NCBI GenBank assembly: GCA_964020155.1
Contig: OZ026551.1
Location: 3,202,518-3,266,517 of the forward strand
From: Chondrilla cf. caribensis
Taxonomy: Eukaryota > Porifera > Demospongiae > Chondrillida > Chondrillidae
Reading direction: 5' to 3'
DNA length: 64,000 nucleotides
The translations under genes were made by a program, and so were the position numbers. The notes under the pieces were generated by a model. The model saw nothing but the letters and a program-made list of their open reading frames with translations. It did no database searches and was not told the DNA's origin. Shown one piece after another: positions 21,817 through 64,000 of this stretch (the stretch's first letter is position 1; every line of letters starts with the position of its first letter).

Positions 21817-24800
21817 TCATACTAGATCCAGTTTCTTGAAGTTGGCATAAGGCTGGAACGCTTGGAGGTAACACCAAACCAAGTCATGGATGAGGATGTA
21901 CTGTTCCTGTAAATGATATAACACATGTACGGTAAGTATTTAACATGTAACAACACATACAGAGTAAAATGTTAATAACACACTAATCAGTACATGGGTG
22001 ACACACTCATCTGTACATGGGTGACACACTCATTAGTACATGGGTGACACTCATCTGTACATGGGTGACACACTCATCAGTACATGGGTGACACTCTCAT
22101 CTGTACATGAGCGACACACTCATCAGTACATGGGTGACACAGTCATCTGTACATGGGCGACACACTATCAGTACATGGCTGACAAACACATTATTACAAT
22201 AATATCATCAGTAACTTGATATATGTATATACGTGGGTGATTAGTTGTCCATTTCATGCAAATCTATCCAATACACGGTGTGAAAATAGAAATACGTAGA
22301 CCCTAAATAATTACACAGAGGTATCAGATGTTCAAGTTTTGTATTTACCACAATACACTATAAGCCTGTTCATGGGATACCCTTTGGACAATGTCTTCAT
22401 ACTTGTGTATGTACAGTCAAATTTGCTTAATGAGCCTTTAATGGCACACCAAATATGTACTTCTTATTTTGAGTACATACATAATACTTGTTGACATTCT
22501 GTCCACGCATGAGCTCCACATACATATAAGTGAAATGAATGTGTTAAACCAAAAGTACTATGTTAACCACTGAGCTCAATGAGAGTAATGTACATTATTT
22601 ATATGATGCCACACATAGGGAAAATTAATACATACAGTAGGTAACCTACGTACTTTATAAATAGACAGGCCTTACGTATGTACGTACATAAGTAGTGATG
22701 CATTGGAAAACTTACGACAGTAGACACCATATATGGTCTCTGGTTTCTGGCAGCTTTGACACTTTGAAATATGTCAGCACTAGCTTCCATTTTGATTCTT
22801 TCAATTTCTGAGCACATGCAGATGAAGGCTCCAGTCCTGCCCATACCGTCACTGTTGGGAAAGTGAAAATGTCATTAAACCCCTGAAGCGAAACTTTACA
22901 ATGAAAGTCACTACAGATAATCAGAATGTACGGAATCTACAAGAGTTTGTGTCAAACACACTAAAGTAGGATCTACAGTACACGGACAATCATTGACTGA
23001 ACCATTCACTGCAGTGTTCCATCATATCTGTCTACATGCTGTCTACTGATCCCATTTGTTAGGGACATGAATACATTGTGAGCATGTACGTATGTACATG
23101 TAGTAGGTATGGGAGGTGCTAAAAGTATCCGTAATAATACAGTCACACTTGCATTAATCACCTCAGGCTGATGCCCGAGGTGATTTATTGAAAGTGTGAC
23201 TGTATAGCTGCACATCGTGTGTGGAAGGGACATAACTAGCTTGTGTCATGGGATGACAATTTTGTTATTGCTCTGTTGTTTGCCTTTGCTGACGTTGTTG
23301 GTAACAGGAAATTGGTCTGATCAGTTAATGGAAAGGGTGATGCGTCATTAGTAACTTGATTGCAAGTGTGCTGTATTGGTAGCTGCAAGTGTGCTGTAGA
23401 GGTTTTATGAGCCACTTTTTTCCTTTGATCTGCCTGTCTACCATGACACAATATACAATAGACTACAACTTTGTTACACAGTAATTATGGTATAACTACA
23501 GTGACAAAAACATTTGAAATACAGCCGAACTACGAGTAAATAACAATCAAACCACGACAACAAGTATGATAACACTACAGTCCAACTACTTCTGAGCTAC
23601 ACATGTACATATGTTGGTAGCATAAGAATTGATCTACAACAGCTACTGCAGGAGAATATACCCAGTATGATGGAGCAAGACAGTGAGAATGGTTGAGAAG
23701 GATAAGAGAAATATGCTCAACTAACAGTTATAGATTGTTCAATCAAACTACGCATGTACGTACGTACATTAGGATTATGATGGAACTGTAGTTATTTAAT
23801 GATCAAGATACAATTAGATTACTATTCGTGCTATGAAACTATTATGTTGCAGAAACAAGTTTGATGCACACAGTACTTTGCATCCACTCACTTGCACATC
23901 ACCACAGCTGAGGCAGTAGATCCCTTCTGTGCTTGGTCATATTCCTGAATTACATTCAGAATGGTGGACGGTTGAACTTCACCGACCTCAGGCCAACCGT
24001 AGAGATGGATCAAAGTCAATTCACGACACTCTTTTCCTTGCTGTGGAAAAAGTATACAACAGGAAACACAGCTTTTAAGAGTAATCCATCACAAATGTGA
24101 AAAGAGTACTGCTATAAAACTATGAAACAAATTATGTACATTACTCAGTGCATCAAATACACACGAATTACTACAAACTACATACGTGTACGTACGTATG
24201 TACAAGTGCAATTACATATGCATGGCCAATAACAATACAATGCAGCATAAATTGACTGCCAAAGTCAGCTAAAATGTTCATTCACTGTATGTACGTACAT
24301 GTAAATGCACATGTACATAAATATTACATATGCATATATACATGACTCTATGTACCTACCGTCATTATGACTATTTGTGTGTTTATTCTCATGGTATGTA
24401 CGTACATATGTATGTACATATGTCACTCATTACAGTATGTGCATATGTAGTCAGGTACATAAGTACATACGGTACTAATCATATAAAACTGAACGTTCTA
24501 CGGGTACGGAACAGCCGTTTAGTAGGCGTTTCACCGAACTTGACGATTGCAAAAAATGTACACCTACGTAGTGATACCTAGAGTAACACCTACGTATCTC
24601 CTTTTCATCGTGTTATAGTTCGTTAGAAGACGGTTTATTCGAGTTACGTGAAGCAGCGAATTCTCTTTTGTCGTCGTTCGAGAAAAAGCTACGCAGAAGA
24701 CGATGAAATGACCGCGGTCGAACTCCAATAACTACTTAAGAGCGAATCGTATGACGCCTCACTATCCACGATACTCTGAGGAACACTCATGACGGGAGAA

Positions 24801-25730
24801 GAACGTACATACGTACGTAGAAAGCTCGTTTCGAAATAGCACTTCACTATAAAAATTAATGCATACGTAACAATAATAAATGATAACACGAGGTGTCGAT
24901 TACGGTAAGAACGGGTACGGGTACGGGTACACCCATACCCGTACCCGTTTCACGGGCGTTTTCACACTACGGGTACGCCCGTAGAACGTTCAGTTTTGTA
25001 TGATTAGTACCGTACATACGTACGTATGTATTGCATACCTCATCTTCCATAGACAGCTGTAATTTATACACGCAGCATTGCTCTATGTCTCTTTTCCCCA
25101 GTATTTTGATGGAAAACTGACCAAACACAGGATCTCCATGATCCGAGGACCAGAAGCAGCACACAGAAGTCTAACAGCAAAGAAGATAAAGCACTCACAA
25201 TGGCAAGGTCAAGTACGGATGTACGTACGTACATTTCTGACATACTACTAACAACATGCACATATTCCTATATGTATGCATGTACGTATGTACATATGTG
25301 TACTCGAAGGTTTTCAATACTCACATCCTTCAGCTCTTCAAGAGTACAGATGGCAACCACAGTTTGACAACGTTTGAACAATATGACTTTCAGAAGATCC
25401 TGGACTGTACTGGGCAGTGGGAGTTGTGTGGCAATGACACCCTTGCTAACAGAGTAGGTCTGAAGAGGGGCATATATGTACGTACGTTCACTTTAATGTA
25501 GTGTGGGAAGTATGATTGAGGAGAGCAAGTACAACTAACATCAATTTGTGAAGCATTGACGTATCTTGAGGCTCGGTTGCCAGGAACATAAAAGCAGTTG
25601 GCTTGATCTGTGAACACAAGGATAAGAAATGCAAAATACATTGACATTGGTGCATGTGCATACATACATACGTATACTGTACAGAATTAATGTGTGTATA
25701 CACACACACACAAACTCACTCACTTAATCA

Positions 25731-25792
<62 letters not shown>

Positions 25793-25815
25793 TACACACA
25801 TACACACACACACAC

Positions 25816-25856
<41 letters not shown>

Positions 25857-28800
25857 CACACACACACACACACACATACATAATGAAAAAGTATGTACAT
25901 ATACATACAAGATATACCATATGTACATACGTACATACGTGTGTACAAGGTAGGTAAGTACTATCATGTAATAAGTACTGTATATTATACACACCTACGT
26001 ACATGTGTATAATATTATTTATACGTATACCATGCATACATATGTATGCATGCTCATTGACTACTTACATGGGAACCGTGCGGCATAGCGATTTTCATGC
26101 ACGTTTTTTTCTGCAAATTCCTCATCTACTTTCAGTGGAAACCGTGACAGTTGTTCCAAAAGCTACAAAGCACAAATCACAAAAGAGAACAGCTTGACAT
26201 GGCAAAGATATGCATTAGCCATGCACACTAGTACACTAGTGGTGGGCGATATTCCTTAGAGAGTATTCAACTAACAACTCCCTATTGACATCCCGATATA
26301 ACTATATATCATGATACTCCTTTACTCATATCTTTAACTACAATGGTTTTCCCACACATTTCAACACCCCTCTGTAGACTACAGTAATAGCTTCACATTG
26401 CCATTCCTTGGGTAGATGACAGCAAGACAGAGTGATAATCAACTTCATCAATTCTGTAGCACATCAAGACAGCCTACAGCCATAACATGAAGTATCCAAT
26501 ACCACAGTTATTATATCATGTACGATATCTCGATACTGATCAAATATTCCCGCTATCATATCGACACTCTTTGGATATCTGGAATAACTACAAATATTGG
26601 TATACTTTCCAACATTACTGTACACTGTGCATTACCAATTCACATACGTACATATGTATAAACATATGGATGTATGTACATACGTATGTACGTACGTATG
26701 TAGATAAATGCATACCTTAAACTGTTCTTCAAAGCCAGTCATATTTTTGCTTCCAATCTGCCGTAGACTCACAAGAGTGGACTCAAAGTCATGAGCCTTC
26801 ACAGAGGTGTCCCCACAGGTCACATACTCGGAGATGGCTTCATGTACGAATATGTACTGCTCCTACATGTGGAACAGACACGAGTCTACATAACACACAT
26901 TACACACACCTGCGTACGTACACACTTTGTAGCAATGTGCCCATCTGTGTATCTTTGCACTCATGTGTATGCATAGCAACCAATAACACATCTTTGTGTG
27001 CGATATTTATCTACACACTTGATACACACAACATATATATACGTACATACGTATGCACATATACAGATGTACATATGTACACACACACCAGATTCTGTAT
27101 CATGTAAGGCCTGTCACAACGCATACTGTACATGAATTCGTAAATGTTGACATCGCCTTTCGTCTTCAATCTCTGCATCATTGCATCGATGGCAATCATA
27201 GTTCCAGAACGGCCCACACCGGCACTGCAGACAGAGACAGCACAAAAATACACATCAAATAACTGATTTGATATTGTGAAAGTGATAAACACCTCAAACA
27301 ACAGACATAATAACTACGTAGGCATTCAGTGACACACCTGTGTTAAGGTACATATGTACGTACATATAGGAACTTATAATAATATAATATATAAGTATTT
27401 GTGTCCCTCCAATGAAAAGACTTGTAATGAATGGAGAGATGCATACGTAGTATACACTCTGAATATATGAAACAATAAAAAATACTTAAAACACATCGCA
27501 ACAGATTGAACAAGTCAGTCAACAGCACACCATACAGCAGTACCATGCAATTGTAGAAACAGGACAAAATTGATGTGACAAGTGGAATATATCCACAATT
27601 GTTTGACAAGAAGTAATAAGTGATCAATACCATGCTATACACCTTTTTATATGTTCCATGGTGTTATTTCAAACTTTGCAGCAGTGCAAAGTTTCTTTAT
27701 ACACATTTCACTTTATATTTCATTTTCATATTTTATTTCCAATATTTCACTTTGACAAAGAAACTGCACACACATGCTACATGTAATACAAGTGTTGACT
27801 AGTGGTCATTTCCTATTGGAGCAGGTAACTCCAGCTGTCCTCATAATTTAGTTATCCAAACATCTTTGGTCCCATGAGTCTGCATGACTGCCTCCCAATT
27901 AAACATACCACATACACATACGTATACTACGTAGGTAACTAAATACACACTACACTGCTTAATTCTCAGGAGATCTGCACTAATCCTTCCTATCTGGTCT
28001 GTTCAATTGCAGCCGTATGAAGTCTCTGCCCACAACATGAAATAAACATGCAAACAGTTTACCACATTGAGGAGGTGTGGAGCCTTAGGAATGTCCACCA
28101 GTAACATAAACAAACATACAGGGTGAACTGCACCACAATATTTGTGAATCTAGAAGAGAGAACATGCAAGTGTACATCTGTATGAATGTTCGTATGTACT
28201 TACGTATGTATGTATGTACGAATATACGCACATACGTACGTACGTACGTACATATGTATGGAATAAAAATACAGCAAGACGTTAGATCACACATACGTAC
28301 ATACATACATATTCTCACCTGCAGTGTACCAAGAGAGGTGATTTGTTGGAATGATGGTCTCTAATAACTTGTATGAATTTGATTACAGAGGCAGGGTACT
28401 TGGGAACCCCATGGTCGGGCCAAGCTGTGTACTGGAAGTGCTTGATGTACATACTGGATGGGTCATCTCCTTCCTATGAGGATATACGTACAAGGCAGTC
28501 AATTTGCATATGTACATTTCTGTGGGCACAAATACCACAATGTGTGTACAGAGTTCTCACTGATAAGAGAGGAGACAACAACAGATTGCCACAACATGCC
28601 ACAGGTTCACAAAACCATGGTCAGGTGCAAGCAAGGTGGGCAATACAGATGCCTAATAATATCAACAACCAGTTGGGGCAATACACTGTCACAGCATGTG
28701 GTTGGAATGATGAATTTTTTCCCAACCCTTTTTGTTTTTTCACTCAAATGTGAAGTGAAAATTGAAACAGACAGACTGTGTGATACTAACACTGTACACA

Positions 28801-31500
28801 CCATAACGGATAATTCTTCAATAGCTTGTACGTACATACATACGTACATACATACATGTGTATGAAGAGAGTTGTCACTGACAGGAGATGAGACAAAGGC
28901 ATATTGCCACAACATTCCACAGGTTCAATAAACCATGACCAGATGCAGGCCAGGTTGGCTACATTAATTTGTAGTGAACCCAATTCATGTGCAGTGTACA
29001 GTGCATGGAACCAGGACCAGCATAGAGCATGTCTAAGATAATAATATGTCAACTACAAAACTGCTGACATATGTCAACTATCTGTGTACACCAGACCAAC
29101 TGTCTTACAATGGGTATATGTACGTATGTACATATATACAGACCAATACAAAGACACATCATTAATATACACACATAATACGTGCATGTACATATATTAT
29201 ATATATACATACGTATTTAATAATGGCAAGTAATACTATACCACAGGTACACAAATATGTACGTATGTACATAGTAAAATGTATAACAATATTTACATAT
29301 GTACCATCATGATGAAATTTGATTAATTAATCAATTTATACCCAAGACTGATTATGTCATGCCTATTCTTAACCACAGAGCTCTTCTTGGTAGACTATTG
29401 TAAGCTATTGCTTGAAACTCACTTTAGTTAGTGAAAATGTGCGAACTTCATACTCAGCAAACGACTTGTGCTCCAAAAGTGTAACAGCCAACCCATTTTC
29501 GAGGGTGAATTGCTCAGAGACCTTGTCATTCCAATACTGGACACACTTCATCTATTATGATGGACAACAAGAAGGGGTCAACATACGTACGTATACAATA
29601 CATTGGTTCATACAGACAGCATGGATCATATTTCTATTCACAATGGTTAAAATATGCATTGCATTCACGTGAATGCATATCCAGTGTGAATAGGCAAACT
29701 ATGACATGTATAGGATCCACATTCACTGGAGTATAGGTATGTAACTATGTACGTACTTATGTACCTAGCTGGCCACAAAATATGTACGTATGCACACCAA
29801 TGTACTCACATGCATACATGCAAACAAATGTACATACGTACGTACATATGTAATTAGAGTAGTATTGCTATGAATAGTAATGAAATACATACGTATGTAT
29901 TTCTCTAAGATATTAACATTGCACAAGTACACATGAGTCTCCATTAACTGGGATTTTGAGTTTATGTGAATAGAATCATATGTAGTGCCCACGCACGTAC
30001 ATACGTATGTACGTATGTATGTACATAATTACATGTGCTAACCAGTGTTAGCTTGATTGAGCAGACATTTATTACCTTGATCTGTAGACACCAAACTACA
30101 ATCACATGTACGTACATACGTACGTATGTGCTAGGTGTTTCTTGGAATAGACAATTTATACAGAGTACATGTAAATAGTTCAGTATAAAATATCATGGCA
30201 CATAGAAAGTGTTCATCAATACCTTGCCTGGTTTCAGTCAAACAATCCTAACAATGAAACCTGTCTGGTGAACGGTGTTGGTTCCCACATGCACACAATA
30301 GTAACCTGGTCCCAGTGCTGATGTGTGCACACTGCTTTGTTTGATCTTTTGCCAAACAGGCATACAAGCATGCACATGCTTCTCACCTTTCCTTTCTCCT
30401 CCACTTTTGTGAGCATCACAATGACGGACATCTTGTTCTCCATGACCATTTGCCAGAAGTCACTTGTAGTGTGGGGCAGAGGACCTGAACCGGACAACAT
30501 GTCAGAGAGGAACTTGTAAGTACTGCTCAGGCATGCACAAATACATTAAATGTCCACTATGTATTCAAGCATACATATGTACGTACCTACGTATTATGAA
30601 TATTAAGCATTTATATATGTAGATACAATCTCATGTACGTACACATCCAGTATATACGTACATGTGTATGTACATATGTACATCAAGTATTTAAGCATAA
30701 TAGCATGTAGTAGATAAATCTTTCCTTGGGTTGGTACATGAGAAATGTACTCACTGCAGAAGACTAATTGACCTCAGGATGTGCTCTTGGTCAATTAGTC
30801 TTATGCAGTGAGGACATTCCCATGTACCAACCCAAGGAGGGATTTATCTATTATGTATCCTGGCAACTAGAAGTGTATCAGAATTAATCAGGCTTTGTCA
30901 AAAAGTACATCAACTTGACCTGTTCTGAGCTAGTACATGGGAAAAGTACATAAGCCATATCCTTTGATTTTACCTTCAACCAGGATACATAATACAGATG
31001 TACTTCTGTACATACGTACATGAATACACTTCCCGTATCATGTGTGTATGTACAGTGAATTCCCATTAATCCATCAAACATTTTTATCCACCACAATTCC
31101 CCTGTACCAATATACATGTACGTACTAATGAATATCCAAATAATCTGCCATACTTGCTAATCCACCATACGTATTTCGAAAAACTTGTATTTGATTGATG
31201 AGAGTTCACTGGACATACGTACTTTAGGATTGTGGGTGGGTATGTTGCTATTGGTGTACAATTACAACACGGGTGACACTAACCTTGAGCCACTACATAT
31301 GAAATCCTCTTATCGTAACCCTACATTGATATGCACATGCATAGTAGACTACAGAATTCATCATTGGATAGGACATTCAACTCACAGTTATGAATGAGGC
31401 ATTGATGTAGTCACAATTTCCTGAAATGGACACTCTTGAATGGTCATCTATATAAGGAACAATAGGGGGTGTCTGATGTATTGAGTAGTGTATGTACGTA

Positions 31501-31532
<32 letters not shown>

Positions 31533-31541
31533 TGTGTGTGC

Positions 31542-31572
<31 letters not shown>

Positions 31573-31596
31573 TGTGTGACACTGTGTGTGTGTGAC

Positions 31597-31675
<79 letters not shown>

Positions 31676-31692
31676 CACTGTGTGTGTGTGAC

Positions 31693-31734
<42 letters not shown>

Positions 31735-31851
31735 TGATTAAGTGAGTGAGTTTGTGTGTGTATATACACATTCATTCTGTACAGTATACATATGTACGTA
31801 TACGTATGTACATACTTTTTCATTATGTATGTGTAATTGTGTGTGTGTTGT

Positions 31852-31920
<69 letters not shown>

Positions 31921-34900
31921 TCATATTTTAGTTATGTATTTGTATGTGCAAACACTCCCAAATAAAGTAGTATGTTTATCACATAGGTACATATTATATG
32001 TAGACAGTATACCTACTACCCACAACTCAGGATACACAGGCATGCTAAGTTTAGACAAGTGACAATGTGTTTAGTTAACAGTCAGGAAGTGTGAGATGTA
32101 CAAGCCATACAAATCCCATACATACATGGTATAATCTTCCTGTATCTGTTCTTTTCAGGGCAGGCCTGCCCTGCGCTTGTCTGTGCTGTGAAGTCCCTCA
32201 AAGGAAGTCCCTAACAAAGACAGTTGACGTAAAGGTCATGCATATGCATCAGCACGACCTCAATCATAGACCAGACCATAGGTTCTACAGTGACACAAAT
32301 TATGGGTATGTTTTTGCAATTTTCCCAGGGTCAACAACTGAGGTTCCATAAGGCTGACAGTAATCTATGACATAAGCCCACACATGGGTACAATTAGTCA
32401 ATGACGTAAGTGAGTTTAGCGTAAAAGCACAGCAATTTATCACTGGGGATAGCACAAATGCAATATCAAATGCTTCAGTGAACTCCATCAAATGCTCCAC
32501 TGAACCCCAAATATGCACCGTTAGCAACATTGGGTGCAAATCAGTTTGGGCAACAGTGTGGGATGTATTGACATGCATTCCTGGCGTGTTGTCAATCTTC
32601 AACAGGACAGCGAGGTCTGGTCCCATGGCATGACTAACCCGATAACGAATCACATGGGAATGGCTGGTCTAAGGCTTCACCAGTAGCAGTACAGCACAAA
32701 TATAGTAACAGACAGAGGGGAAATTGCACTTTGATAAGTGCGAGATTCTTCAGTACACACACTTGAGTGGCTTCAGAGTGACAGAATGCACATCATCTCA
32801 CTTACTTTATACTCGACAGCAAAGCTGTCATTTTTCCTCATTTCTTTCATGTAATTAAAGAATTGTGACGTTTTAACTGGTGGTAACAGGTTAACATATT
32901 GTCCTATGAAGAAAAAAGTGCGTTTTAACCAGGCACCAGATGTGATTGCAGTATTCACACATTGACAGTGAAGTGTACGTACTTTCATTCTTGATGTCAG
33001 GTGGCTTGATTTGGTCAATCTCAGCTGCCAATATGTCGTCTTCGTCTGGTGTTGCTCGAGCTGAGGGTGGACACAAACCACTCATTCAAATATGTAACAA
33101 CAGCCACATCAATGATGTCTATCTTGTGTTTGTGGGTGGGATATACATACACAATTACATGTGTACTAAAGTGCATACACTCTAAGTACGTATGTGGGTA
33201 CACATCTACAATAACGCAGAATATACCTACACATACTGCACATAACCACATCCATGTATGTACATGGTAACATACGTATGTAACTATGATATGGTACTTC
33301 ATGTAAAACCAACAATAATTACACAAATATGTACATACGTACGTACGTACGTGTACACTCCCATGTTGCATACACGCATACATATGTACGTACATATGTA
33401 GGATTGAGAGTGGATACAAAATAAAATATACGTATATACCTATGCACAGTGTGTGTGTACATTACATATACATTTATATACAGAGTACTGCATGAATACG
33501 TATGTCTGTACATACGTATAAAAATTGCCCAACGTTGATGGAAACATTAACATAATATGTACGTACATACGTACGTACGTATGCACTGGTGCTATGTACG
33601 TACGTACGTACGTGAATAGGGTATAACGTACCTGTTAATTGACCACTGCTAGGATCACAAACATGCCCATCAGGCTTCTCTCCCTTTGGAGGTAGACTGA
33701 TCACTGTCTCCAGCTCAGGAGGCTCTCGGCTAGTACTCTTGGACAATGTACCTTGGCTATCGGAACCACTCTCACAGAGTTCTTCATTGTGGAAATTCAC
33801 CGTTTTATTCCTTTGGAAGAAGAGCGAAAGTATTGACACTTCACATTACCATACGTGATTTACGTACTGAGTACTGTGCACACTCACACAGGGTACGTTT
33901 TCAAGAAAACCTTTAATGAAGATATTATGTGCAGTGAAACATTTAAGTTCGACTTTTAGCATGAATTAAAATTGTTGACGTTTCAAAATCTGCCATCATT
34001 TTGCTCAATATAAATTATGATATAAATTTCACTGTTGTGGTTACATGTAGGAAAACATTATATACTCATTAATCTACCGTAATTCTTTTCCAAAAAATAA
34101 GGTGGATTAACAAGTTTTGTGGATTAACTGGAAATTCACTGGTAGTTGTACATTGTGTAAAACAAATTCAATCTCAGTCTAATAAATATTATGGTAACCT
34201 CGTGGCAAAACAGTAACATACGTACTTACCAAAACAATCTGCATATTTCCTACACACACATGCACACAGACACACACACACACACACATATTAATATGGC
34301 ACAATATGCTATATGTACATACGTACGTACGTAACTGAATACAACACATAAATGACCAAGACTTTATAAGTGTAAGCTTGACAAAATGTCTCTTACTAAC
34401 CTTTTTTTATACTTGTAGCAGATAACAATTGCCACCAGAACTACAGCCACGACCACGACAAAACTGACAATAATCACCACAGCTAAAACAATTCCAACAG
34501 TTGTTGGTGGTTCTGTACTTAAGATGCCAATAGTTGTTGGTGTGGTGAACAGAGGGACATCCACTAGGAGGTGATATCAGGGAAGATGAATACATGTGAA
34601 GTAAAGACCATCACCACCACCACCACTGCAGCTATGACAAGGTCCCACATACCTGGAGTAGAATCTGGTCCACTGCCACCTGCAGTACTGACTCCAACAA
34701 CAAGAGAATAGGTTACACCTTCACTCAAATCAATAATAGTTGTAGAATTCTGTTGTGTTTGTTGTGACTGTGCCTGTCTGGACACTCTCCCACTAGTTCC
34801 TGTTGGTGTGTATGTTATAGTATACACAGGGAATCCCCTGGCCTCCCTTGGAGTTAGACTGGTCCAACTGACCATCATTTCACTAGAGGACAATCTCTCA

Positions 34901-37757: not shown

Positions 37758-37964
37758 GACTATGTGGAGTGCTTGGGTGAGGGTATCCCCAGGGGGGTTA
37801 CAGAGACAGGGACAACTACTATGACATTCTGGAATCTTCCACACCACACAATGTATGCATGTCGTGTTGCTGCTGTTAACGTCAATGGTACTGGTCCATA
37901 CAGCATGTACAAGAACATCACTACACCCCAGGGTGGTGAGATGTTGGTGTCTGCTGAATTTCTA
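37758..37964 (+). pseudogene. Orphan 3' part of an FN3b exon
   Basis: The frame VECLGEGIPRG, then TMYACRVAAVNVNG and KNITTPQGG, matches the second half of FN3b in all the receptors and keeps the exon-end GGTGGTGAG donor. The first half, its acceptor and all other exons are absent. It is a relic of an earlier gene copy or of the breakpoint between the inverted RPTP and receptor A. Confidence 0.8.
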
Positions 37965-38212
37965 TGCAAGACAGATAGTGATGTGTGATGCTTCTCTCCT
38001 GTAGTCCAGTCAAGTACAGTGCCACTATATTAACCTCTGGAATCATTATTGTTTTGGTGGTATATAATTGTCATTTTGTTGTTATGGTGGTACTTTGTTC
38101 TGCTTGTAATTTTGTCAAAAGACAACTACAGTTATAGTGATGGTTAATGAGATTCTGTATATGGCCTTTTATATACATTATGTGAGAGTGTACATAATGT
38201 ATAAGTAGTGTG

Positions 38213-38640
<428 letters not shown>

Positions 38641-39444: not shown

Positions 39445-39839
39445 ATGAGTATCTCAACAATATTGCTGATCTCGAGCTGTGTTCTGGGTGAGATTCCATA
39501 TACGTTACCAAGGTAGACTTACGTAATTCTAGTCCATATCAAAGTTTACGTCTATGTTATACCATATTATTATTTGTGTTTTCTAATAGTAGTAAAAATA
39601 AAGTAAACAAGGTCACATACAATAATGTATAAAATACTATATTGTAACATTGTACAGATATGAATAATAAACAGAATAATTGACTAGACATGATATGTCA
39701 TGATTTAAAGTAATTAATCCCACTGTAACATTTCTGGGAATTAAAAGTGACCGAGCAGCTAAGGTGTTAGTCCTCTTTGCACTCCCAAGTACTGGAGCTG
39801 AAAACTGGTTATAAAGACTGTGAATTATCACAATGTTTC

Positions 39840-39884
<45 letters not shown>

Positions 39885-42800: not shown

Positions 42801-43086
42801 TCAGCCCTTGGACCAGTGGACATCACAGTGAGCAAAGTTAATGATAGTCGAGTCAGTGTGTCCTGGAGTCTCCCCAACCCTCTCAATGGAGTCGTCACCA
42901 AGTATACGGTGAAATACAGGGAATATGACAGTCAGGTTGACAACACACTGAACACCAATGAATCTACTCGTGATATTGAAATAAGTGGACTTGGTGAGTG
43001 TAATCACGTGCAATCATACATACATAGATGTTAGTTATATCTATATATGCATACTTTTGTCTGTAGACTTGCTCGAATTCCAATGC

Positions 43087-43128
<42 letters not shown>

Positions 43129-44819: not shown

Positions 44820-44846
44820 ATTGTACACGTACACTCATAAACGTAC

Positions 44847-46412: not shown

Positions 46413-46417
46413 TCATT

Positions 46418-48480: not shown

Positions 48481-48533
48481 AAGGGAAGACCGTTTCACAA
48501 GACTACTTCTGTTTATCTCAATTCGTTACATCG

Positions 48534-49671
48534 ATGGAGCAGATGTGTCTAAGAACTGTTTTCGTTCTGTTACTCCTTGTTTCGTTCCAACGAGGTAGAT
48601 CCCAAGCACCTGGAGACGAAAACGAATTTTGTGTGAACTTTAATGAACTTAACCCGCCAAGTTACAGAGAACCGAACAGAGAGATACTGTTCGATTCATA
48701 CAGCTATCCTGCTCTGGTAGAGCGTGTCATTGATGTTGCCAACCCGTCAGTGCACAATGCTCAACCAGTGTTTACTCGATACAGTTTAGAAGGATCTTTG
48801 GTGAGTTACTAGAACTGTTACAGTATTCGTGAGTCTTGGTGGATACGCCCAATTTACCCCAGTGTGATCTGCATTAGACAGCCTGACTCATCGGCTGCGG
48901 TGATGATCGTTATTTGAAGGTATCGTCTATTTTCTCTGTTTGTTCATCTCACTCACATGCAGAATTGGCAACAGCATCGGGGTCTTGGGAATTGTAGAGT
49001 TGAAGTATTCAACTGTAAGGTTGCTAGTGATGGTACTAGAAATTCTAATGTCGAGGAGGACAACTGGGTGGTCACTCAGCATGTGAGGGTTTCAAGGACT
49101 GTTCAAGAGCCTTGCGTATTCCTCAGGTTCACCCTCACAAGATGTCCAAGTGATGCCGGAACTACATGTCGTGACAGTTTTGCCTTGTACATCGTGCCGT
49201 CCAATGTCAGCTCCGGAATAAGTCAAACCGATGTGATGACGTTTTCAAGTCCTCTTATCCCGATTCAAATCACTGGGGTAGATAGTACAGCTACTTCTAA
49301 ATACCACAGTATTACACGCGGGTCCTTGACAGGATATGAAGGCTTCCGTATGGCTTTACGGAACGAGAATGCTTGCATGACAATACACAGAATACAAGTG
49401 CTGTACTGGATTTGCCCAGCAGGCAGGCAGGGGCTGGCCTATGTGGATAAAGTTGGAGAACCAAATGATGTGGGAACCTTCAGGTGTGTTGGTAATTCCT
49501 CCCTGATCGACCCAGCTAAAAATGAAAGTCTCTGTAAATTGAGTACAACAGGCAACGAGGAATCTGCAGATTGGGTGACTCTCGGTGGAGGTGCAGTTAG
49601 TTTGTCCCAAGCTTGTGGATGTGATCCTGGGTTTATTTCTACATGGATAAACGGAGAGGACCAGTGTCAAG
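48534..49671 (+). other. Eph receptor ligand-binding domain exons (receptor B)
   Basis: Two exons joined in phase 0 at SL then NWQQ. Beta-jelly-roll signatures of the Eph family are in order (EILFDS at the start, NWVVTQHV, the paired cysteines CPS and TCRDSF, and GFRMALRNENAC before YWICPAG). The known role of this domain is binding ephrins on neighbouring cells; here the ligand is unknown. Confidence 0.83.
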
Positions 49672-51367
49672 GTTAGCTCAACATTTCATGCGTTTTTTCA
49701 TAATATTAAATTTATTCAATAATTTGAAATCATCCCATCAAATCTCACTTGGTGCACTTCATAATATGCTGGCATCCTGGTGTATGTACGTACTTGCATG
49801 GTAGTCCTACCTGTATTTAGCGCTGGTGTGTGCATATGGACCGTAGATGACCATGGTGGTATTCAAGAACCCATACATGTGCAGTGAGACTGACATGTGT
49901 ATTGTATGGGTGTGAAATAGTAGCACTTCCTTATATGGCAAGTGATGTGTGATGTCATCCCCTCAGCCCTTGGACCAGTGGACATTGCAGTGAGCAAAGT
50001 TGACAATGATAGTCGAGTCATTGTGTCCTGGAGTCTCCCTGACCCTCTCAATGGAGTCATCACCAACTATACGATGGAATACAGGGAATATGACAGTCAG
50101 GTTGACAGCACACTGAACACCAATGAATCTACTCGTGAGATTGAGATAAGTGGACTTGGTGAGTAAAATCACGTGAATAAATTGCATGTATGTATAGATA
50201 TGTATACCATGTACCTAGCTACCTACAGATGTACGTACGCATATTATAGATGTGAATATATTTACTTATCAAATGTATACATATGTAATTGATATAATTA
50301 CTATGCTTCATTATATTCTCTACTGCATCCCATAGTCCCTGGTGTCCCTTACAGTGTTGTGGTGATAGCAGAAACAGGAGGAGGTGCTGGTGAAGAAAGT
50401 GAACGGACATTGTTCTTCTCCAAAGAACTGAGTATGTTGACTGTGTCTACATACTCTGTCTGTGTTTTGTGTGTGTATTGTATGTGTATGAAGCAAGTAC
50501 CGTTCAGATGGTATTGATTGATAATGTAGTACCTTGGATTGCGTTGTCCTTCCACCCACTGTAGTGCCCACAGTAGCAGTGAGGGGGGTCAATGTTGAGA
50601 GATTGTCCTCTAGTGAAATGATGGTCAGTTGGACCAGTCTAACTCCAAGGGAGGCCAGGGGATTCCCTGTGTATACTGTAACATACACACCTACAGGAAC
50701 TAGTGGGAGAGTGTCCAGACAGGCACAGTCAAGACAAACACAACAGAATTCCACAACTATCAATGATTTGATGGAAGATGCAACCTATTCTGTTGTTGTT
50801 GGAGTCAGTACTGCAGGTGGCAGTGGACCAGATTCTACTCCAGGTAAGTGGGACCTTGTCATAGCTGCAGTGGTGGTAGTGGTGGTGGTGTTGGTGGTGA
50901 TGGTGGTATTTACTTCATATGTATTCATCTTCCCTGATATCATCTCCTAGTGGACGTCTCTCTGTTCACCACACCAACAACTGTTGACCACTCAAGTACA
51001 GAACCACCACCAACTGTTGGAATCATAATAGCTGTGGTGGTTATTGTTGTAGTTATCATGCTGGTGACTGCAGTTCTAGTGGCAATTGTGGTTTACTACC
51101 AATATCGAAAAAGGTTAGTGAGAGAGACATTCAGCTGTGTACGCAGTTTCCTCTGGTGAAGCATGTGTAAACACACCAGATATATGATCTGTATTCTGTT
51201 CTTTCCTTCATTATAGAAATCAACCTTCTAAATATGACGTTGACTATACTGAAGGCGGCAATGATGTCAAATTACAGAAGAGTCCAGCTTATGATACAGT
51301 ACAGTTGAGTGGATGTTCTAGCTCCAGTGCTCCGGAGTATGAAAATGTACAGCTGCAGACAGTGTAA
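48534..51367 (+). CDS. Receptor B: Eph-type ligand-binding head, two FN3, TM, tyrosine-motif tail, no kinase
   Basis: Exons: 48534-48800, 48963-49671, 49967-50158, 50336-50431, 50565-50843, 50951-51113, 51217-51367; sum 1857 bp, 618 residues in frame. Signal peptide MEQMCLRTVFVLLLLVSF; Eph ligand-binding domain about 45-240: REILFDS, EEDNWVVTQHVRVS, VFLRFTLTRCPS, TCRDSFALYIVPS, GFRMALRNENAC, VLYWICPAG, the same order as in Eph receptors; a Cys-containing EGF-like stretch to 325; FN3c 326-421; FN3d 422-514; TM; tail with YDVDYT, AYDTVQL and EYENVQL. Compared with D it lacks the Cys-rich exon and FN3a and FN3b, yet the frame is kept. Eph receptors end in a kinase and SAM domain; this one does not. 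Confidence 0.87.
51217..51367 (+). other. Cytoplasmic-tail exon with four clustered tyrosines (receptor B)
   Basis: The last exon gives NQPSKYDVDYTEGG, KSPAYDTVQLSG and APEYENVQLQTV. Two YxxV-Q-L motifs are 16 residues apart (Tyr to Tyr), and YENV also fits the pYxN pattern known for Grb2-type SH2 domains. Strict ITIMs need S, I, V or L two residues before Tyr; here it is proline. The same exon ends receptors A (44094-44244) and C (57372-57525). Confidence 0.75.
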
Positions 51368-52816: not shown

Positions 52817-53915
52817 ATGAATACACTGACAATATCACTGATTACGTGCTGTGTTGTAGGTGAGATTTCATATTATACATCGCCAATTGCGAGATAGACT
52901 TACGTCTATATCCTATTTATCTATATAATATGTTATACCAAATTATATTAGGTAAGGTTAGGTATCAAAATATAAAGTAAACACGGACACATACAATACC
53001 AAACAAAATTTTAAATTGTAACATACAGATGCGAACATAGTATGTTATGATAAAGTACTGAATCGAACTGTAACATTTCTGGAAATTAAAAGTGACCGAG
53101 CAGCTAAGGTGTTAGTCCTCTTTGCACTCCCAAGTACTGTGGCTGAGAAACTGGTTATTAAGACTATGAATTATCACATGTTTCATTTTGTCATTTATAT
53201 ACTATTGTCATGCAATAATAATCATATTACATTATGTGATGTCTATGTTTGATGGGACTTGAGTGTTTGGAAGCAACTTGATTCTACTGAAGACAAACAT
53301 TTGATTGAAACATCTCTACAATGTGCAGCTATGGCCGGGGGAGAGAATTTGCAAGATTCCTTGAATTTCAAAGATTGCACCTTAATAAGTCCAATTTATA
53401 CATGTTTCGCAATCCTATTCTGTTAACTAGGTAAAATATGACCTTTGTACGTATGTATTGGTGCCATTTTTTCACCTAGAACATCATGTGAGTTAAAGTC
53501 AGAGCAAAGTAACATCAAATTGGTTGATGTACATATACATGTTTGTACGTATAGTACACACACACACCATCTACGCACATGTACTTAACTTTCTTTTGGG
53601 TGATGGAGACAAGGAGTTATTTCTCATGCTCTTTGGAGAAATCACCCCCTCCTGACTAGGTCTGGAGATTTCTTATTTGCATTGCATTCAAATTGTGCTC
53701 CCTTCCCCATTCATATATATGCCATTTTCATCAATTTACTGAAGGCAACTTTCATACCAGTGTATCTGTACATATGTACACAGATATACAATAAAATTGT
53801 CCTAATTGAGAAACACATTATATCCAAAAGCTATAATATCTGAACTTTTTCATATGGAACAGATTTATGTGGATAATTGAGGTCCCACTGTATACACATC
53901 TCCCCATACACTCGT

Positions 53916-54002
<87 letters not shown>

Positions 54003-57000
54003 TACACACACCACACACACACCATGTGTACTTTGTTATTCCACCAATGCATAAGACACCATTATAGCTGGGAGACCAGTCGTGATTCCCAAAGCTCCCA
54101 CTACAGTGTTTGTAGAGAGAATTGCGACTAACCATCAGACTGGGAGAACTAATTCCTTTTGCATTTTTTAGTGTCGTGCGGAAATGAACCCCAGCCCAGA
54201 ACATAGAAACCATGTCACTTGACTAACTGGCTACAGACACACACACACACAATATACAATACATCTGCATGTGCAATTGTACATACATGTACTCACATAT
54301 GTACATTCATACATGCACACTGATTGATGTGTACATCCAAATATATGCACATGCCAGTACATGCATGCACGTGTGCATATAACTCATAATTGAGTTACCT
54401 TGTCTTAATAAGCTCAAAATGATATCATAGCCGTCTTTGATCTGTGGTCTAGCGCTCCTCATTTTAAAAATACTTTGAAATAACACAGTTCATTATAATT
54501 ATATATCTCACACAATTTGCAGGGTATCCTTGTACTGAATATTATAGAAGTACTACCACTGTTGGTGCTCAATGCAGCAAGTTGTCCATATGACAAGTAG
54601 TCACCGGGGAGACATCAATGATATCTATGCTAACTCACCCTCCCTCTGGCTGGTCATATCACTGCTCATGGTAGCCATTTTTCTGCCACGTGGAACCCAC
54701 AGTTCTTGTTCATTCCCTAGTTTATTCTCAAATAATGCTCGACACAGTCAGTGACACATCATTCAAACTACACATTGTATAGTCATTTAGCAATCCAGGC
54801 TGACATCCATTATCTAATGTACACATACTGTATTGTAGGATGAGTACAGTATTATATTATTACTATATTATTGCAACCTGCCGAGTTTGCATGTATAATG
54901 TATTGTCCATATACCTACTTTATTGTAGGTTGCATTGTTGAATATAATTTATTAATTGTATTTCCTCAGCACTTACTACTGCTCAGTTGAGTTTAAAATC
55001 AAATGGAGTTGATTACACCAATGACAACTTCTATGCTCCTTTTGGGACCAACTTTACCATATCATGTCAGGGAGGGAGTGGAGCAAAGAATTGGGAAATC
55101 ATTATTTTAGGTTCAACAGTCGTTGGTGTCAGCACTGATAGGACTGACCCTGTATTCCAAAGATCAGATGGTCAGAATCAACATCAAGAATTAGTGATTA
55201 GAGACTTCCAAGATAATTCTCAACTGACATACCAGTGCCGTGAACTTGCAGGGACTACTCCTACTGTTACTGTACGAGTGGAAGAAGGTACATGTTAAGA
55301 TTCTGACTGAGACAATTCTGTACATGTGTTATGATTGTAGTTTGTTTCTCTTAGGTGTTGTGATCATGTCGTATTCTGTTAGTACGACATCAGTACAGTT
55401 GCTATGGGAACCTCTACCTGACAATACAGTTGTTAGTGGAGCCTGTTGTTTGGATAAAACAATACTATCGTCTTGTGAGACATCCTCATCAACACTGAAT
55501 AGTGGTTCTGTGACTATCAGTGATTTGGAGGAATTCACAGAGTATGTGTGTTATATCAATGACAGGTCTCGTGATGTCCCAGCAATGACCTCCAGTGCCA
55601 GTGAGTTTGAGACTATTCCCATTGACTTTGACACTTTGTATGTAGTGGAATGTTGCTGCTTCCTCAGAACCTTCTGGTCCACCGCTTGATGTTACTCTGA
55701 CTGTACTGGGAATGACCTCATTACAGTTTTCTTGGAACATGCCAAATGAGACAGACAAGAATGGTATCATCACAGGCTACTATGTGGAGTGCTTGGGTGA
55801 GGGTATCCCCAGGGGACCTACGGAGACAGGGACAACTACTATGGCATTCTCCAATCTTCCACACCACACAATGTATGCATGTCGTGTTGCTGCTGTTAAC
55901 ATCAATGGTACCGGTCCATACAGCATGTACAAGAACATCACTACACCCCAGGGTGGTGAGTTGTTGTTGTCTGCTGGGTTTGTATCTGTCTTCACTAATT
56001 AATATATTTCCATGTGAGATGTACAGTGATGTGATGTACAGTAATATCTGTCTTCACAGATTAATAAATTTCCTTGTAAGACTGACAGTTACGTATGTGT
56101 GATGTTATCCCCTCAGCCCCTGGACCAGTGGACATCACAGTGAGCAAAGTTGACAATGATAGTCGAGTCAATGTGTCTTGGAGTCTCCCCAACCCTCTCA
56201 ATGGAGTTGTCACCAAGTATACGGTGAAATACAGGGAATATGACAGTCAGAATGACAACACACTGAACACCAATGAATCTACTCGTGAGATTGAGATAAG
56301 TGGACTTGGTGAGTACAATCATGTGACTAATATGTATGTGTGTATATGTATGTATGTATACATATGCATACATACCTACCGACACGTACATGTACCTAGA
56401 TGTGAATATAATATATACGTGTATACATACGTATGTGAATCCATATAGTTATTTATATGCTTCATTAATCCTCTAATGCATCCCATAGTCCCCGGAGTCC
56501 CTTACAGTGTTGTGGTGATAGCAGAAACAGAAGGAGGTGGTACTGGTGAAGAAAGTGAACGGAAACTGTTCTTCTCCAAAGAACTGAGTATGTTGACTGT
56601 GTCTATTTTGTGTATGTATTGTATGTATCAAGTACCGTTCAAATGGTATGTATGTAATGATGACTATATACAGTTGATGCCATCCAACCTGATCCATGTA
56701 GTACCTTGGTTTGCATTGTCCTCCACCCACTGTAGTGCCCACAGTAGCAGTGAGCAGGGTCAGTGTTGAGAGACTGTCCTCTAGTGAAATGATGGTCAGT
56801 TGGACCAGTCTAACTCCAAGGGAGGCCAGGGGATTTCCTGTGTATACTGTAACATACACACCAACAGGAACTAGCGGGAGAGTGTCCAGACAGGCACAGT
56901 CAAGACAAACCCAACAGAATTCTACGACTATCAATGATTTAATGGAAGGTGCAACCTATTCTGTTGTTGTCGAAGTCAGTACTGCAGGTGGCAGTGGACC

Positions 57001-57525
57001 AGATTCTACTCCAGGTATGTGGGACCTTGTCATAGCTGCAGTGATGATGGTGGTGGTGGTGGTGGTGGTGTTCACATATTCATCTTCTCTGATATCACCT
57101 CCTAGTGGATGTCCCTCTGTTCACCACACCCACAACTGTTGACCTCTCGACTACAGAACCACCAACAACTGTTGGAATTGTTATAGCTGTGGTGGTTATT
57201 GTCGTTCTTATCATGCTGGTGGCTGCAGTTCTAGTGGCAATTGTGGTTTACTACCAATATCGAAAAAGGTTAGTGAGAGAGACATTCAGATGTACACACA
57301 GTTTTCTCAGTATAGCATGTGCAAACACACCAAACATATGGTCTGTATTCTGTTCTTTTTTTTCTTTGCAGAAATCAACCTTCTAAATATGACCTTGACT
57401 ATACTGAAGGCGGCAATGATGTCAAATTACAGAAGAATCCAGCTTATGATACAGTACAGTTGAGTGGATATTCTAGCTCCAGTGCTCCGGAGTATGAAAA
57501 TGTACAGCTGCAGACAGTGCAATAG
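52817..57525 (+). CDS. Receptor C: signal peptide, Ig-like, four FN3, TM, tyrosine-motif tail
   Basis: Exons: 52817-52859, 54970-55287, 55355-55600, 55668-55955, 56117-56308, 56489-56587, 56736-57014, 57106-57268, 57372-57525; sum 1782 bp, 593 residues in frame. Same architecture and exon phases as receptor A, with small differences: two extra residues in the Ig-like exon (NQHQE), one extra glycine codon in FN3c, and a different end, LQTVQ. Signal peptide MNTLTISLITCCVVG. Tail motifs are YDLDYT, AYDTVQL and EYENVQL. Its flanks also match those of A, so A and C are recent duplicates. A type I membrane receptor of unknown ligand. Confidence 0.87.
53917..53996. repeat. CA microsatellite in intron 1 of receptor C
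   Basis: About 80 bp of CA repeat; the equivalent place in receptor A (about 40,640-40,720) has only a degenerate CA-rich stretch, so the tract is expanding or contracting between copies. Confidence 0.85.
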
Positions 57526-58800: not shown

Positions 58801-58950
<150 letters not shown>

Positions 58951-59918: not shown

Positions 59919-59996
59919 TGTCGAATCGGGCGATCGGCAATTTCGATCTATCGAAGCGATCGAATCGGGCGATTCGGCAATTTCGATCGCGGCGGA
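59919..59996. repeat. Two-copy repeat rich in CGATCG and CGAATCGGGCGAT words
   Basis: The unit TCGAATCGGGCGAT(C/T)CGGCAATTTCGATC occurs twice, about 35 bp apart, some 70-140 bp before the D start codon. It is absent upstream of B, although the last 50 bp before both start codons (TTTCACAAGACTACTTCTG) are the same. Confidence 0.65.
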
Positions 59997-60061
59997 AAGT
60001 GTCCTTGTGGGCCACCGTAGTTTCACAAGACTACTTCTGTTTATCTCAATTCGTTACATCG

Positions 60062-63000
60062 ATGGAGCAGATGTGTCTGAGAACTGTTTTCGTTCTGTTA
60101 CTCCTTGTTTCGTTCCAACGAGGTAGATCCCAAGCACCTGGGGACGAAAACGAATTTTGTCTGAACTTGAATGAACTTAACCCGCCAAGTTACAGAGAAC
60201 CGAACAGAGAGATACTGTTCGATTCATACAACTATCCTGCTCTGGTAGAGCGTGTTATTGACGTTACCAACCCGTCAGTGCACAATGTTCAACCGGTGTT
60301 CACTCGATACATTTTAGAAGGATCTTTGGTGAGTTACTAGAACTGTTGCAGTATTCGTGAGTCTTGATGGATACGCCTAATTTACCCCAGTGTGAGCTAC
60401 ATTAGACAGCCTGACTCATCGGCTGTGGTGATGATCGGTATCGTCTATTTTTTCTGTTTGTTCATCTCACTCACATGCAGAATTGGCAACAACAACGGCC
60501 TGGTGGGAACTGTAGAGTTGAAGTATTCAACTGCAAGGTTGCTAGTGATGGTAGTGCAGGATCTAATGTCGAGGAGGACAACTGGGTGGTCACTCAGCAT
60601 GTGAAGGTTTCAAGGACTGTTCGAGAGCCTCGCGTGTTCCTCAGGTTCACCCTCACAAGATGTCCGAGTAATGCCGGAACTACATGTCGTGACAGTTTCG
60701 CCTTGTACATCGTGCCGTCCAATGTCAGCTCCGGCATAAGTCAAGCCGATGTGATGACGTTTTCAAGTACTCTTAGCCCGATTCGAATCACCGGGTTAGA
60801 TAGTACAGCTACGTCTAAATACCACAGTATTACACGAGGGTCCTTGACAGGATATGAAGGCTTCCGTATAGCTTTACGGAACGAGAACGCTTGCGTGACA
60901 ATACACAGAATACAAGTGCTGTACTGGATTTGCCCAGCAGGCAGGCAGGGGCTGGCCTATGTGGATACAGTTGGAGAACCAAACGATGTGGGAACCTTCA
61001 GGTGTGTCGGTAATTCCTCCCTGATTGACCCAACTAAAAATGAAAGTCTCTGTAAAGTGAGTACAACAGGCAACGAGGAATCTGCAGATTGGGTGACTCT
61101 CGGTGGAGGAGCAGTTAGCTTGTCCCAAGCTTGTGGATGTGACCCTGGGTTTGGTTCTATGCAAATAAACGGAGAGGACCAGTGTCAAGGTTAGCTCAAC
61201 ATTTCATGCGTTTTTTCATATGTATTAAATTTATTCAATAATTTGAAAGGGAGGGAGGGAGGGAGGAGCTGTAGGTCTAGTATTTTAAACTTCATACGAT
61301 AATTGTGTTTCCTACAAATGTCTGCGTGATTGAACCAACATCAAAAACCCACATCCAACACAGCAGAACATGCTAGAAAGCCTTTCACCAATACCACTTT
61401 GCATGATTTCACCAGCTTGTGTGTGCACATGTGCTCTGCTGTAAGGTGCACCATGTATTGCTGTTAAAGGTCTGTTGTACTGTGCATGTGTACACTATGT
61501 TGGATGAATCCCACCTTAGTACTGTACATACATACCATAGTGGGAATTTTATACACTTTGTACTTGCTTGTAAAATGTATAAATTTTCACAGCAAGTACT
61601 GTGAGAGGAGCCATGTGTCTTATCTCAGCCCCCTCAGTGATAGCCATATCTGAAAGTGGAGCCGTGTTTATGGGTCCATTTCACACCCTCACTTTCGTTT
61701 GTTACATAATGTGCATATGCGACTATTGTTAACCATTCAACTGAACTATCAGGTTGATATGCTTGACTGGTCTGTGTGTGTAGAGCTAAGGGTGTGAATG
61801 CACTGCTGAGGTGTTTCGGTATCACTGTTTGCTGAGTCCAAAGTACAGCAAACACAGGCGAAGGGATATTATCAATATACAGTGCCAGTACACACACTGA
61901 CAAATGTTGTGTGTATGTGAACAATGTTTGTTCTAGTTGTGGTAGACTGTAGTGAGTGAACCTCCATAATCTACCCACATGTTGAGATCTCCCCATCATT
62001 GCAGACTGCACTGAGTGAACCTCTATAATCTACCCACATGTTGAGATCTCCCCATCATTGTGGACTGTACTGATTCAAAGGTACGTGTGACTTCCTTCAC
62101 TTACAGAGTGTCTTCCAGGAATGTTCAAAGAAAAAGTGGCGAATGTTCCATGTTCTCCTTGTCCTGAGAGGAGCTTTGCTAACTCAACTGGCACTGTGTC
62201 TTGTCAGTGCAAGAAGGGCTACTACAGAGGAGAGAATGAAACAGCTTCACTTCCATGTGCACGTGAGTACTCCACACAGTACACAGTACATACAGTACAC
62301 ACAATACACACAGTACATACAGTACACACAGTATATACCGTACATACAGTACACACAGTACATGCAGTACACACAGTACATACAGTGCACACATTACATA
62401 CAGTACACACAGTACACACAGTACACACAGTACACACGGTACACACCGTACATACAGTCTATACGGTACATACAGTATACACAGTAGATACAGTATGCAT
62501 ATGCATACACACCATCATGCACACATATGCACATACACCATCATACACATACACAAACCATCACAATAAAATGTCACACTGATGAGTATACATTACTTAC
62601 TATGTGCTGTATATACTGTATATACTGTATATACTTGTTTCTGTTAGGAGTTGTGATCACAAGGTATTTTATCAGTGCAACATCAGTACAGTTGCTATGG
62701 GAACCTTCATCAGACAATACAGTTGTTAGTGGAACCTGTTGTTTGAATAAAACAATACCATCGTCTTGTGAGACATCCTCATCAACACTGAATAATGGTT
62801 CAGTGACTATCATTTATTTGGAGGAATTCACAGAGTATGTGTGTTATATCAATGACAGGTCTCGTGATGTCTCAGTAATGACCTCCAGTGCCAGTGAGTT
62901 TGAGACTATTCCTGTTGACTTCGACACTTTGTATGTAATGGAATGTTGCTGCTTCCTCAGAACCTTCTGGTCCTCCACTTGATGTTACTCTGACTGTACT

Positions 63001-64000
63001 GGAAATGACCTCATTACAGCTTTCTTGGAGCATGCCAAATGAGACAGACAGGAATGGTATCATCACAGGCTACTATGTGGAGTGCTTGGGTGAGGGTATC
63101 CCCAGGGGACCTACAGAGACAGGGACAACTACTATGACATTCTCCAATCTTCCACACCACACAATGTATGCATGTCGTGTTGCTGCTGTTAACGTCAATG
63201 GTACTGGTCCATACAGCATGTACATGAACATCACTACACCCCAGGGTGGTGAGTTGTTGGTGTCTGCTGGGTTTATATCTGTCTTCACAGATTAATAAAT
63301 TTCCATGTGAGATTTACAGTGATGTGTAATGTTATCCCCTCAGCCCCTGGACCAGTGGACATCACAGTGAGCAAAGTTGACAATGATGTTCAGGTCAGTG
63401 TGTCCTGGAGTCTCCCTGACCCTCTCAATGGAGTCGTCACCAAATATACGGTGAAATACAGGGAGCATGCCAGTCAGGATGACAACACACTGAACACCAA
63501 TGAATCTACTCGTGAGATTGAGATAAGTGGACTTGGTGAGTACGATCATGTGAATAATACGTATGTGTGTACATGTATGTATATGTATGTACCTACCTAC
63601 CTACAGATGTACGTATGTAGATGTGAATATATTTACTAATTATCAAATGTATACATATGTAAATCAATTATGTTTTGTTAATTCTCTAATGCATCCAATA
63701 GTCCCTGGCGTCCCTTACAGTGTTGCAGAGATAGCAGAAACAGGAGGAGGTGCTGGTGAAGAAAGTGAACGGACACTGTTCTTCTCCAAAGAACTAAGTA
63801 TGTTGTTACTATTTTGTTACTATTTTATTGTGTATTGTATGTATCGAATCCTGTTCAGATGGTATGTATGTAATGATGACTATGTATACTTGATACCATC
63901 CAAACCTGATCCATGGTTGGTTTGTGTTGTCCTCCATCCACTGTAGTGCCCACAGTAGCAGTGAGGGGGGTCAATGTTGAGAGATTGTCCTCTAGTGAAA
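60062..64000 (+). CDS. Receptor D: Eph-type head, Eph-type Cys-rich exon, FN3 stalk; truncated by the window edge
   Basis: Exons: 60062-60328, 60481-61189, 62107-62262, 62648-62893, 62961-63248, 63344-63535, 63702-63797, 63947 to beyond 64000. The start at 60062 (MEQMCLRTVF) is chosen because the same start opens receptor B; the frame also extends upstream to an ATG at 59,891 that would bury the signal peptide. Eph ligand-binding head as in B, then CLPGMFKEK, VPCSPCPERSFANSTGTVSC, QCKKGYYRGENE and LPCA, matching the Eph Cys-rich GCC2-type segment, then FN3a, FN3b, FN3c and the start of FN3d. This is the full Eph-type layout before the TM. The cytoplasmic end is not visible; by analogy with B a tyrosine tail is expected. 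Confidence 0.87.
62107..62262 (+). other. Eph-type Cys-rich exon (receptor D)
   Basis: A 156-bp symmetric phase 1 exon with six cysteines in the order C-LPGMFK, PC-SPC-PERSF, SC-QC-KKGYYRG, LPC. This equals the segment between ligand-binding and FN3 domains in Eph receptors. It is absent from receptor B. Confidence 0.85.
62275..62490. repeat. Minisatellite of 8-bp units (ACAGTACA type)
   Basis: Repeats of GTACACACAGTACATACA with variants fill the intron right after the Cys-rich exon of receptor D. The long frames through it (VHTVHT type) are artefacts. Confidence 0.85.

Follow-up and report, generated by a model that had tools for sequence, protein, structure and literature searches.

In vertebrates, the paired receptors CD300A and CD300C have similar ectodomains, kept alike by gene conversion, and opposite signalling ends of the inhibitory and activating immune-receptor types (PMC12447643). 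Clustered families of tyrosine-tail receptors are known from allorecognition: the fester co-receptors (FcoR) of Botryllus, with tails bearing an immunoreceptor tyrosine-based inhibition motif (ITIM), a hemi-form (hemITAM) of the activation motif (ITAM) or a YxxI/L/V core, the Hydractinia candidates with ITAM or ITIM (PMC12065747), and the 41 members of the Hydractinia Alr family (PMC11999971). Kinase-less Eph-like architectures have been reported in early animals (PMC6485061), the history of Eph receptors is covered in PMC6993872, and FN3-type receptor tyrosine phosphatases (RPTPs) are present in the sponge Amphimedon (PMC5336234). Here we describe a cluster of one RPTP gene on the minus strand and four receptor genes, A, B, C and D, on the plus strand, in a window of 64,000 nucleotides from the sponge Chondrilla cf. 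caribensis (contig OZ026551.1, or C6:3202518-3266517; the genome searched comprises 137 Mb in 37 contigs). Judging from the sequence, we propose with a probability of roughly 0.55 that these are paired receptors: a phosphatase and kinase-less receptors with a common extracellular module, such that the phosphatase and its probable substrate would share ligand specificity.

The locus resembles CD300A/CD300C in its similar ectodomains, opposite ends and signs of gene conversion; it differs in that one partner is a transmembrane phosphatase and in its heads, which are Ig-like/FN3 or Eph-type. With the Botryllus and Hydractinia families it has in common the clustering of tyrosine-tail receptors. 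Those families have Ig or Ig/sushi heads and polymorphism was shown for them, whereas here one genome was read; the available parts of PMC12065747 and PMC11999971 yielded no phosphatase partner with the same ectodomain. Receptor B resembles the kinase-less Eph-like receptors in having a ligand-binding domain (LBD), FN3 repeats and a transmembrane (TM) segment and no kinase, but its tail is a defined tyrosine exon common to A and C, which have no LBD. The word 'phosphatase' is absent from the main text of PMC6485061. In the literature searched, which leaves most subscription papers and preprints outside its coverage, we found no phosphatase as the matched partner of a paired receptor.

The RPTP and A lie head to head, and a single alternatively spliced gene was rejected for these two because they occupy opposite strands. 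RPTP, A and C share a module of 2.4 kb consisting of an Ig-like exon, present only in these three, four FN3 repeats and the TM exon. The DNA identity of the RPTP to A and C is 92-98% in the Ig-like, FN1, FN2, FN3a and FN4 exons and 91-97% in the short FN3b exon. Homologous blocks between gene copies measure ∼0.6-1.8 kb at 83-96% identity (blastn), which excludes chance as the origin of the similarity. When the alignment of the three genes was scanned in 100-column windows, RPTP-A identity was 0.92-1.00 in most of them (RPTP 36.74-34.49 kb) and lower around three introns (0.84; 0.59-0.79; 0.86-0.89); the window just before the Ig-like exon gave 0.78, the TM window 0.79 and the two that follow the TM exon 0.36-0.40. 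Homology between the RPTP and the tail genes ends just behind this exon. The TM donor, AG/GTTAGT, is common to RPTP, A, B and C; the exon behind it begins with G in the RPTP or with A in the tail genes, completing an arginine codon in both. Thus the same phase-2 junction feeds either a phosphatase or a tail, which suggests opposing signals. Near-identical ectodomains, different signalling ends and linkage occur together in the RPTP with A and C; B and D do not match them as whole ectodomains.

An earlier note on this DNA had read one ectodomain in all five receptors. Its near-identical FN3 exons are borne out for RPTP, A and C (92-98% in most exons), and the single ectodomain is not: B and D open with an Eph-type LBD, B is devoid of FN1 and FN2, and D adds a Cys-rich exon. 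The TM exon type ascribed to RPTP, A, B and C is indeed common to them (80-84% DNA identity between the RPTP and the other three), and A, B and C do end in ∼50 residues with clustered tyrosines, four in A and B and five in C. The note had also raised the possibility that the shared exons belong to one gene through duplication in the assembly. That A-D are haplotype copies placed in tandem might be supposed from the likeness of the 5' flanks of A, C and D. We regard this as very improbable, since the RPTP and A are on opposite strands, exon content differs in B and D, and the copies diverge by 2-12% per ectodomain exon and by 4-20% in the TM exon.

The closest relative of A changes along the module. 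In five windows (starts at RPTP 36639-36245, from the end of the Ig-like exon through its intron and FN1) RPTP-A identity is 0.97-1.00 against 0.92-0.98 for A-C, and in the TM window the order is reversed (0.79 against 0.98). Such a switch of nearest neighbour is the pattern of gene conversion. The synonymous divergence (dS) of RPTP-A is 0.080 in the pooled ectodomain versus 0.228 in the TM exon (Fisher p = 0.0097, on rounded counts). From these comparisons, the module has most likely been kept alike by duplication and gene conversion. The ratio of nonsynonymous to synonymous divergence (dN/dS) in the pooled ectodomain is 0.32-0.69 in ten pairs, and no exon tested contains a stop. In the tails the ratio is below 1 in both pairs that have one; for B-C it is undefined, there being no synonymous change.

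Recent tandem duplication and exon shuffling could also have produced such a cluster without any functional pairing, the ectodomain module being merely young and the tail genes by-products. The locus is tandem and repeat-rich and includes a partial FN2 exon copy in the gap between the RPTP and A (37759-37956, plus strand), 96% identical to the FN2 of D. FN3 genes are numerous on the same contig: with FN4 of A as the genome query there are at least 61 matches, at least 53 of them on C6 (hand count), 20 having sequence and four of these being the window's own. A tree of 24 FN4 rows places the four from the window (one phosphatase and three tails) in one group (100/99); 16 of the 19 inner branches are open, and the labels of the inner ends show no clustering beyond that of shuffled labels (157 and 162 of 500 were as low), as duplication alone would give. 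Against this explanation speak the dN/dS values below 1 in the pooled ectodomain and in the two tail pairs, the switch of nearest neighbour along the module, a tail core kept in three clusters, and the recurrence of this pairing in a second cluster, with an FN4 that is ∼40% identical in protein to that of the window. We consider duplication without pairing possible and rather doubtful.

The second cluster holds two RPTPs, L060 and L063, at C6:2.95 and 3.05 Mb, together with NPAY/YEEI tails at 2.74-3.02 Mb, one of them on the minus strand. The membrane-proximal FN4 exon of L060 is 99.2% identical in DNA to that of the tail receptor L061 and 98.1% to that of L063, and several FN3 exons are common to L060 and tail receptors at 68-96% (over stretches including flanks). 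Near-identical ectodomains, different inner ends and linkage are therefore found in L060 with L061 as well; taken with the window, the same outside with either a phosphatase or a tail inside occurs twice. The sequence examined for the RPTP in L062 does not include the ectodomain.

The tail of the window is ∼50 residues long, with the consensus RNQPS.YD.DYTEGG.DVKLQK.PAYDTVQLSG...APEYENVQLQ, and its three matches in the genome are A, B and C. A PAY-type tyrosine tail follows within 1.5 kb in 11 of the 16 other FN4 matches (L028-L043); FN4 of L040 continues into a phosphatase, as seen in L060; a tail is probable in L034, at the far end of its stretch (C6:2789508); and in L028, L031 and L036 no such end was seen within 1.5 kb. 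The tail of L038 is single-copy. Another form of the tail, NPAYGxVNIYEEI, is matched 14 times in the genome, 13 on C6 and two with an internal stop. Among eight chosen tails from three clusters, only P, A, Y and a later Y are invariant in the alignment. The ITAM consensus is YxxL/I-x6-12-YxxL/I; the tail of the window reads YDTV-x12-YENV, with V in place of L/I, and its YENV is presumably a Grb2-type site. The tail of L029 (C6:1489225-1492491), YETI-x10-YEEI, fits the ITAM spacing. The tails of the second cluster end in NPAY..YEEI, the Src-SH2 consensus, and pYEEI is described as the best ligand of the Src SH2 domain (PMC7337045). A Src-type gene with SH2 and kinase domains is encoded in the genome (L056; PDB match to Src at 2.3e-161), as are kringle kinases, and its families of RPTPs and tyrosine kinases are large. 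L056 belongs to a tandem series of tyrosine-kinase matches at C14:1603-1626 kb (L056, L058 and L059), in which SH2 was examined in L056 only.

On these grounds the paired receptors might work as follows. It is at the phase-2 intron following the TM exon that one cytoplasmic end would be exchanged for another. Src-family kinases would phosphorylate the tails, which would then be bound by SH2 or PTB proteins. Because its ectodomain matches, the phosphatase would be attracted to the ligand of the tail receptors and would either erase the phosphates or activate the kinase. The output would be set by the proportion of the two receptors engaged by one ligand. The ligand may be a self/non-self or neighbour-cell marker, which is the least supported part of the proposal. 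Alternatively, A-C could be adhesion molecules, or ligand-binding dominant negatives for the RPTP, with a tail that serves trafficking through NPxY or YxxV sorting. The PAY core is reminiscent of the NPxY sorting motif. For the Eph-like proteins without a kinase that occur in sponges, cnidarians and ctenophores, a possible adhesive function has been suggested (PMC6485061). Spaced tyrosines, an acidic residue at +1, I or V at +3 and the exact YEEI of the second cluster, however, seem more than sorting would need, and we think an adhesive or decoy role unlikely.

Receptors B and D differ from the others in their heads. The LBD of B matches Ephrin_lbd at 38.5 bits (cut-off 27), with a PDB match to EphA2, and the Cys-rich exon of D matches PF07699 at 23.1 bits, exactly equal to the cut-off. 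Both receptors thus possess the Eph-type domain, and B has no tyrosine kinase: it ends in the tail exon, and among the 133 of 1258 candidates scored, PF07714 matches none in the window. The genome search with Ephrin_lbd gave two candidates out of two in the window, B and D, and the LBD of B as query returned the same two; 14 controls were not recovered in this search, and divergent or split LBDs could escape it. A search of the genome for ephrin ligands gave no match, and nothing is concluded from it, as its controls were likewise unrecovered. In a protein search with B (619 amino acids from joined exons), none of the 8000 candidates sharing most words reached E <= 0.001. B has the architecture signal peptide-LBD-FN3-FN3-TM-tail, and A and C signal peptide-Ig-like-four FN3-TM-tail. 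D proceeds from signal peptide, LBD and Cys-rich exon to FN3 and then leaves the window, directly beyond which 7,500 N follow. The homologous signal exons of A and C lie ∼2 kb upstream; that of C came from a signal-peptide scan and that of A from aligning the flanks of the two genes. The first exon of the A, C and RPTP module has a C..W..C pattern only, with no Pfam family and a non-significant best PDB match (E 0.21).

Type IIa RPTPs, such as LAR and PTPsigma, have several Ig domains before their FN3 repeats. The RPTP of the window is like them in its FN3-TM-D1-D2 layout, and the D2 of PTPRS likewise has WPE in the PDB alignment. It differs in that a single, unconfirmed Ig-like exon stands in place of the several Ig domains, and in having an ectodomain common to tail receptors. 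It combines a TM segment with the catalytic motifs of D1, of which ∼13 residues are unplaced. The usual D1 motifs, called complete in the earlier note, are present (Table 1). The joined model with D1 matches Y_phosphatase at 2.6e-66 (Pfam), and the best PDB match of D1 is PTPRS (6.4e-106), then PTPRF/LAR. Two joined D2 pieces match a phosphatase at 1.1e-18; from its motifs (Table 1), D2 is probably weak or inactive. The candidate signal exon of the RPTP shows homology to that of A and C no higher than shuffled scores.

Table 1. Exons of the RPTP and of receptors A-D, in window positions (position 1 is the first letter of the window)
Feature	Position	Strand	Remarks
RPTP signal-peptide exon, candidate	37261..37303	-	MNILVYPFFVGSVL/A; phase-1 donor; picked from 6 phase-1 candidates by donor score and distance
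RPTP Ig-like exon	36444..36755	-	domain name without Pfam support
RPTP four FN3 repeats, five exons	36376-36131, 36063-35776, 35613-35422, 35191-35093, 34931-34653	-	ends approximate to 1-2 bases
RPTP TM exon	34401..34563	-	phase-2 donor AG/GTTAGT
RPTP juxtamembrane and D1 phosphatase exons	26716..33810	-	KNRY, YINAS, TTSDFW, KCVQYW, WPDHG, HCSAGVGRSG, QNLEQY
RPTP D2 phosphatase-like exons to stop near 21817	21817..26716	-	WPE; MC-N-DGMGRTG; some exon ends approximate
A signal-peptide exon	39445..39487	+	MSISTILLISSCVL/A; homologous to that of C
A Ig-like, four FN3 and TM exons	41729..43992	+	
A cytoplasmic tyrosine tail and stop	44094..44244	+	
B signal peptide and Eph-type LBD, two exons	48534..49671	+	phase 0 between the exons; PF01404 1.6e-9; EphA2 7.7e-9
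B FN3a, FN3b, FN4 and TM exons	49967..51113	+	
B tyrosine tail and stop	51217..51367	+	
C signal-peptide exon	52817..52859	+	MNTLTISLITCCVV/A
C Ig-like, four FN3 and TM exons	54970..57268	+	
C tyrosine tail and stop	57372..57525	+	
D signal peptide and Eph-type LBD (60062-61191), Ephrin_rec_like Cys-rich exon (62107-62262), FN1-FN3b, start of FN4	60062..64000	+	runs out of window

The pairing suggested by the earlier note draws support from the same outside with different insides in RPTP, A and C, the boundary behind the TM exon, the conversion-like switch and the second cluster. Several observations weigh against it. Because the heads of B and D are of another type, the five receptors cannot all share a ligand, and the inner end of D lies beyond the window. 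The topology switch is that of one locus and three sequences. There is no clear diversifying selection: only two of the 52 exon-by-pair dN/dS ratios exceed 1 (A-C Ig-like, 2.28; B-D FN3a, 1.38), each from few changes and without a significance test. YEEI is absent from the tail of the window, which has YDTV and YENV instead. In the RPTP the placement of the signal exon is not firm, and no consistent small-exon candidate was found for the D1 residues between YINASF and GPLP. Many RPTPs in this genome lack a demonstrated tail partner, among them the minus-strand RPTP of L023 (C6:3152518-3162517), ∼44 kb to the left of the window, with an FN4 only 25% identical and no partner seen. Conversely, the tail cluster at 1.2-1.5 Mb has no matching phosphatase ectodomain in the sequence read.

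In a broader and tentative form, which the sequences make conceivable and which we would not count as probable, paired receptors would be a general early-animal system of several clusters, in which kinase-less receptors with PAY..YEEI/YENV tails and RPTPs are kept alike by conversion, each ligand meeting both a substrate and an eraser. At C6:4.30-4.86 Mb there are many minus-strand RPTP matches, with plus-strand FN3 at 4.53-4.59 Mb without a nearby phosphatase among the matches listed; this region is possibly a third paired cluster.

Other features of the window lie to the left of the RPTP. An intronless open frame at 13862-17992 has 1376 codons (1346 amino acids from an internal Met) and a hydrophobic C-terminal half, with no Pfam match above the cut-off. 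An exon at 5660-6043 on the minus strand is similar to the C-terminal portion of protein kinases (Pkinase_C, 20.3 bits against a cut-off of 20.9), and broken open frames at 18714-20356, also on the minus strand, resemble retroelement remains as judged by eye. The window gave no match to Rfam at gathering thresholds.

Immune recognition in vertebrates is characterized by paired receptors whose outsides match and whose insides are opposed, and here the opposed partner is a receptor phosphatase. With the pairing found again in a second cluster, the idea of an enzyme and its substrate paired directly on one ligand becomes testable. The general system sketched above would, if real, be an enzyme-based counterpart of the ITAM/ITIM paired receptors and a candidate allorecognition locus for a sponge. 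For the sponge host, where the literature searched yielded none of this kind, the cluster would provide concrete candidate receptors for self/non-self recognition.

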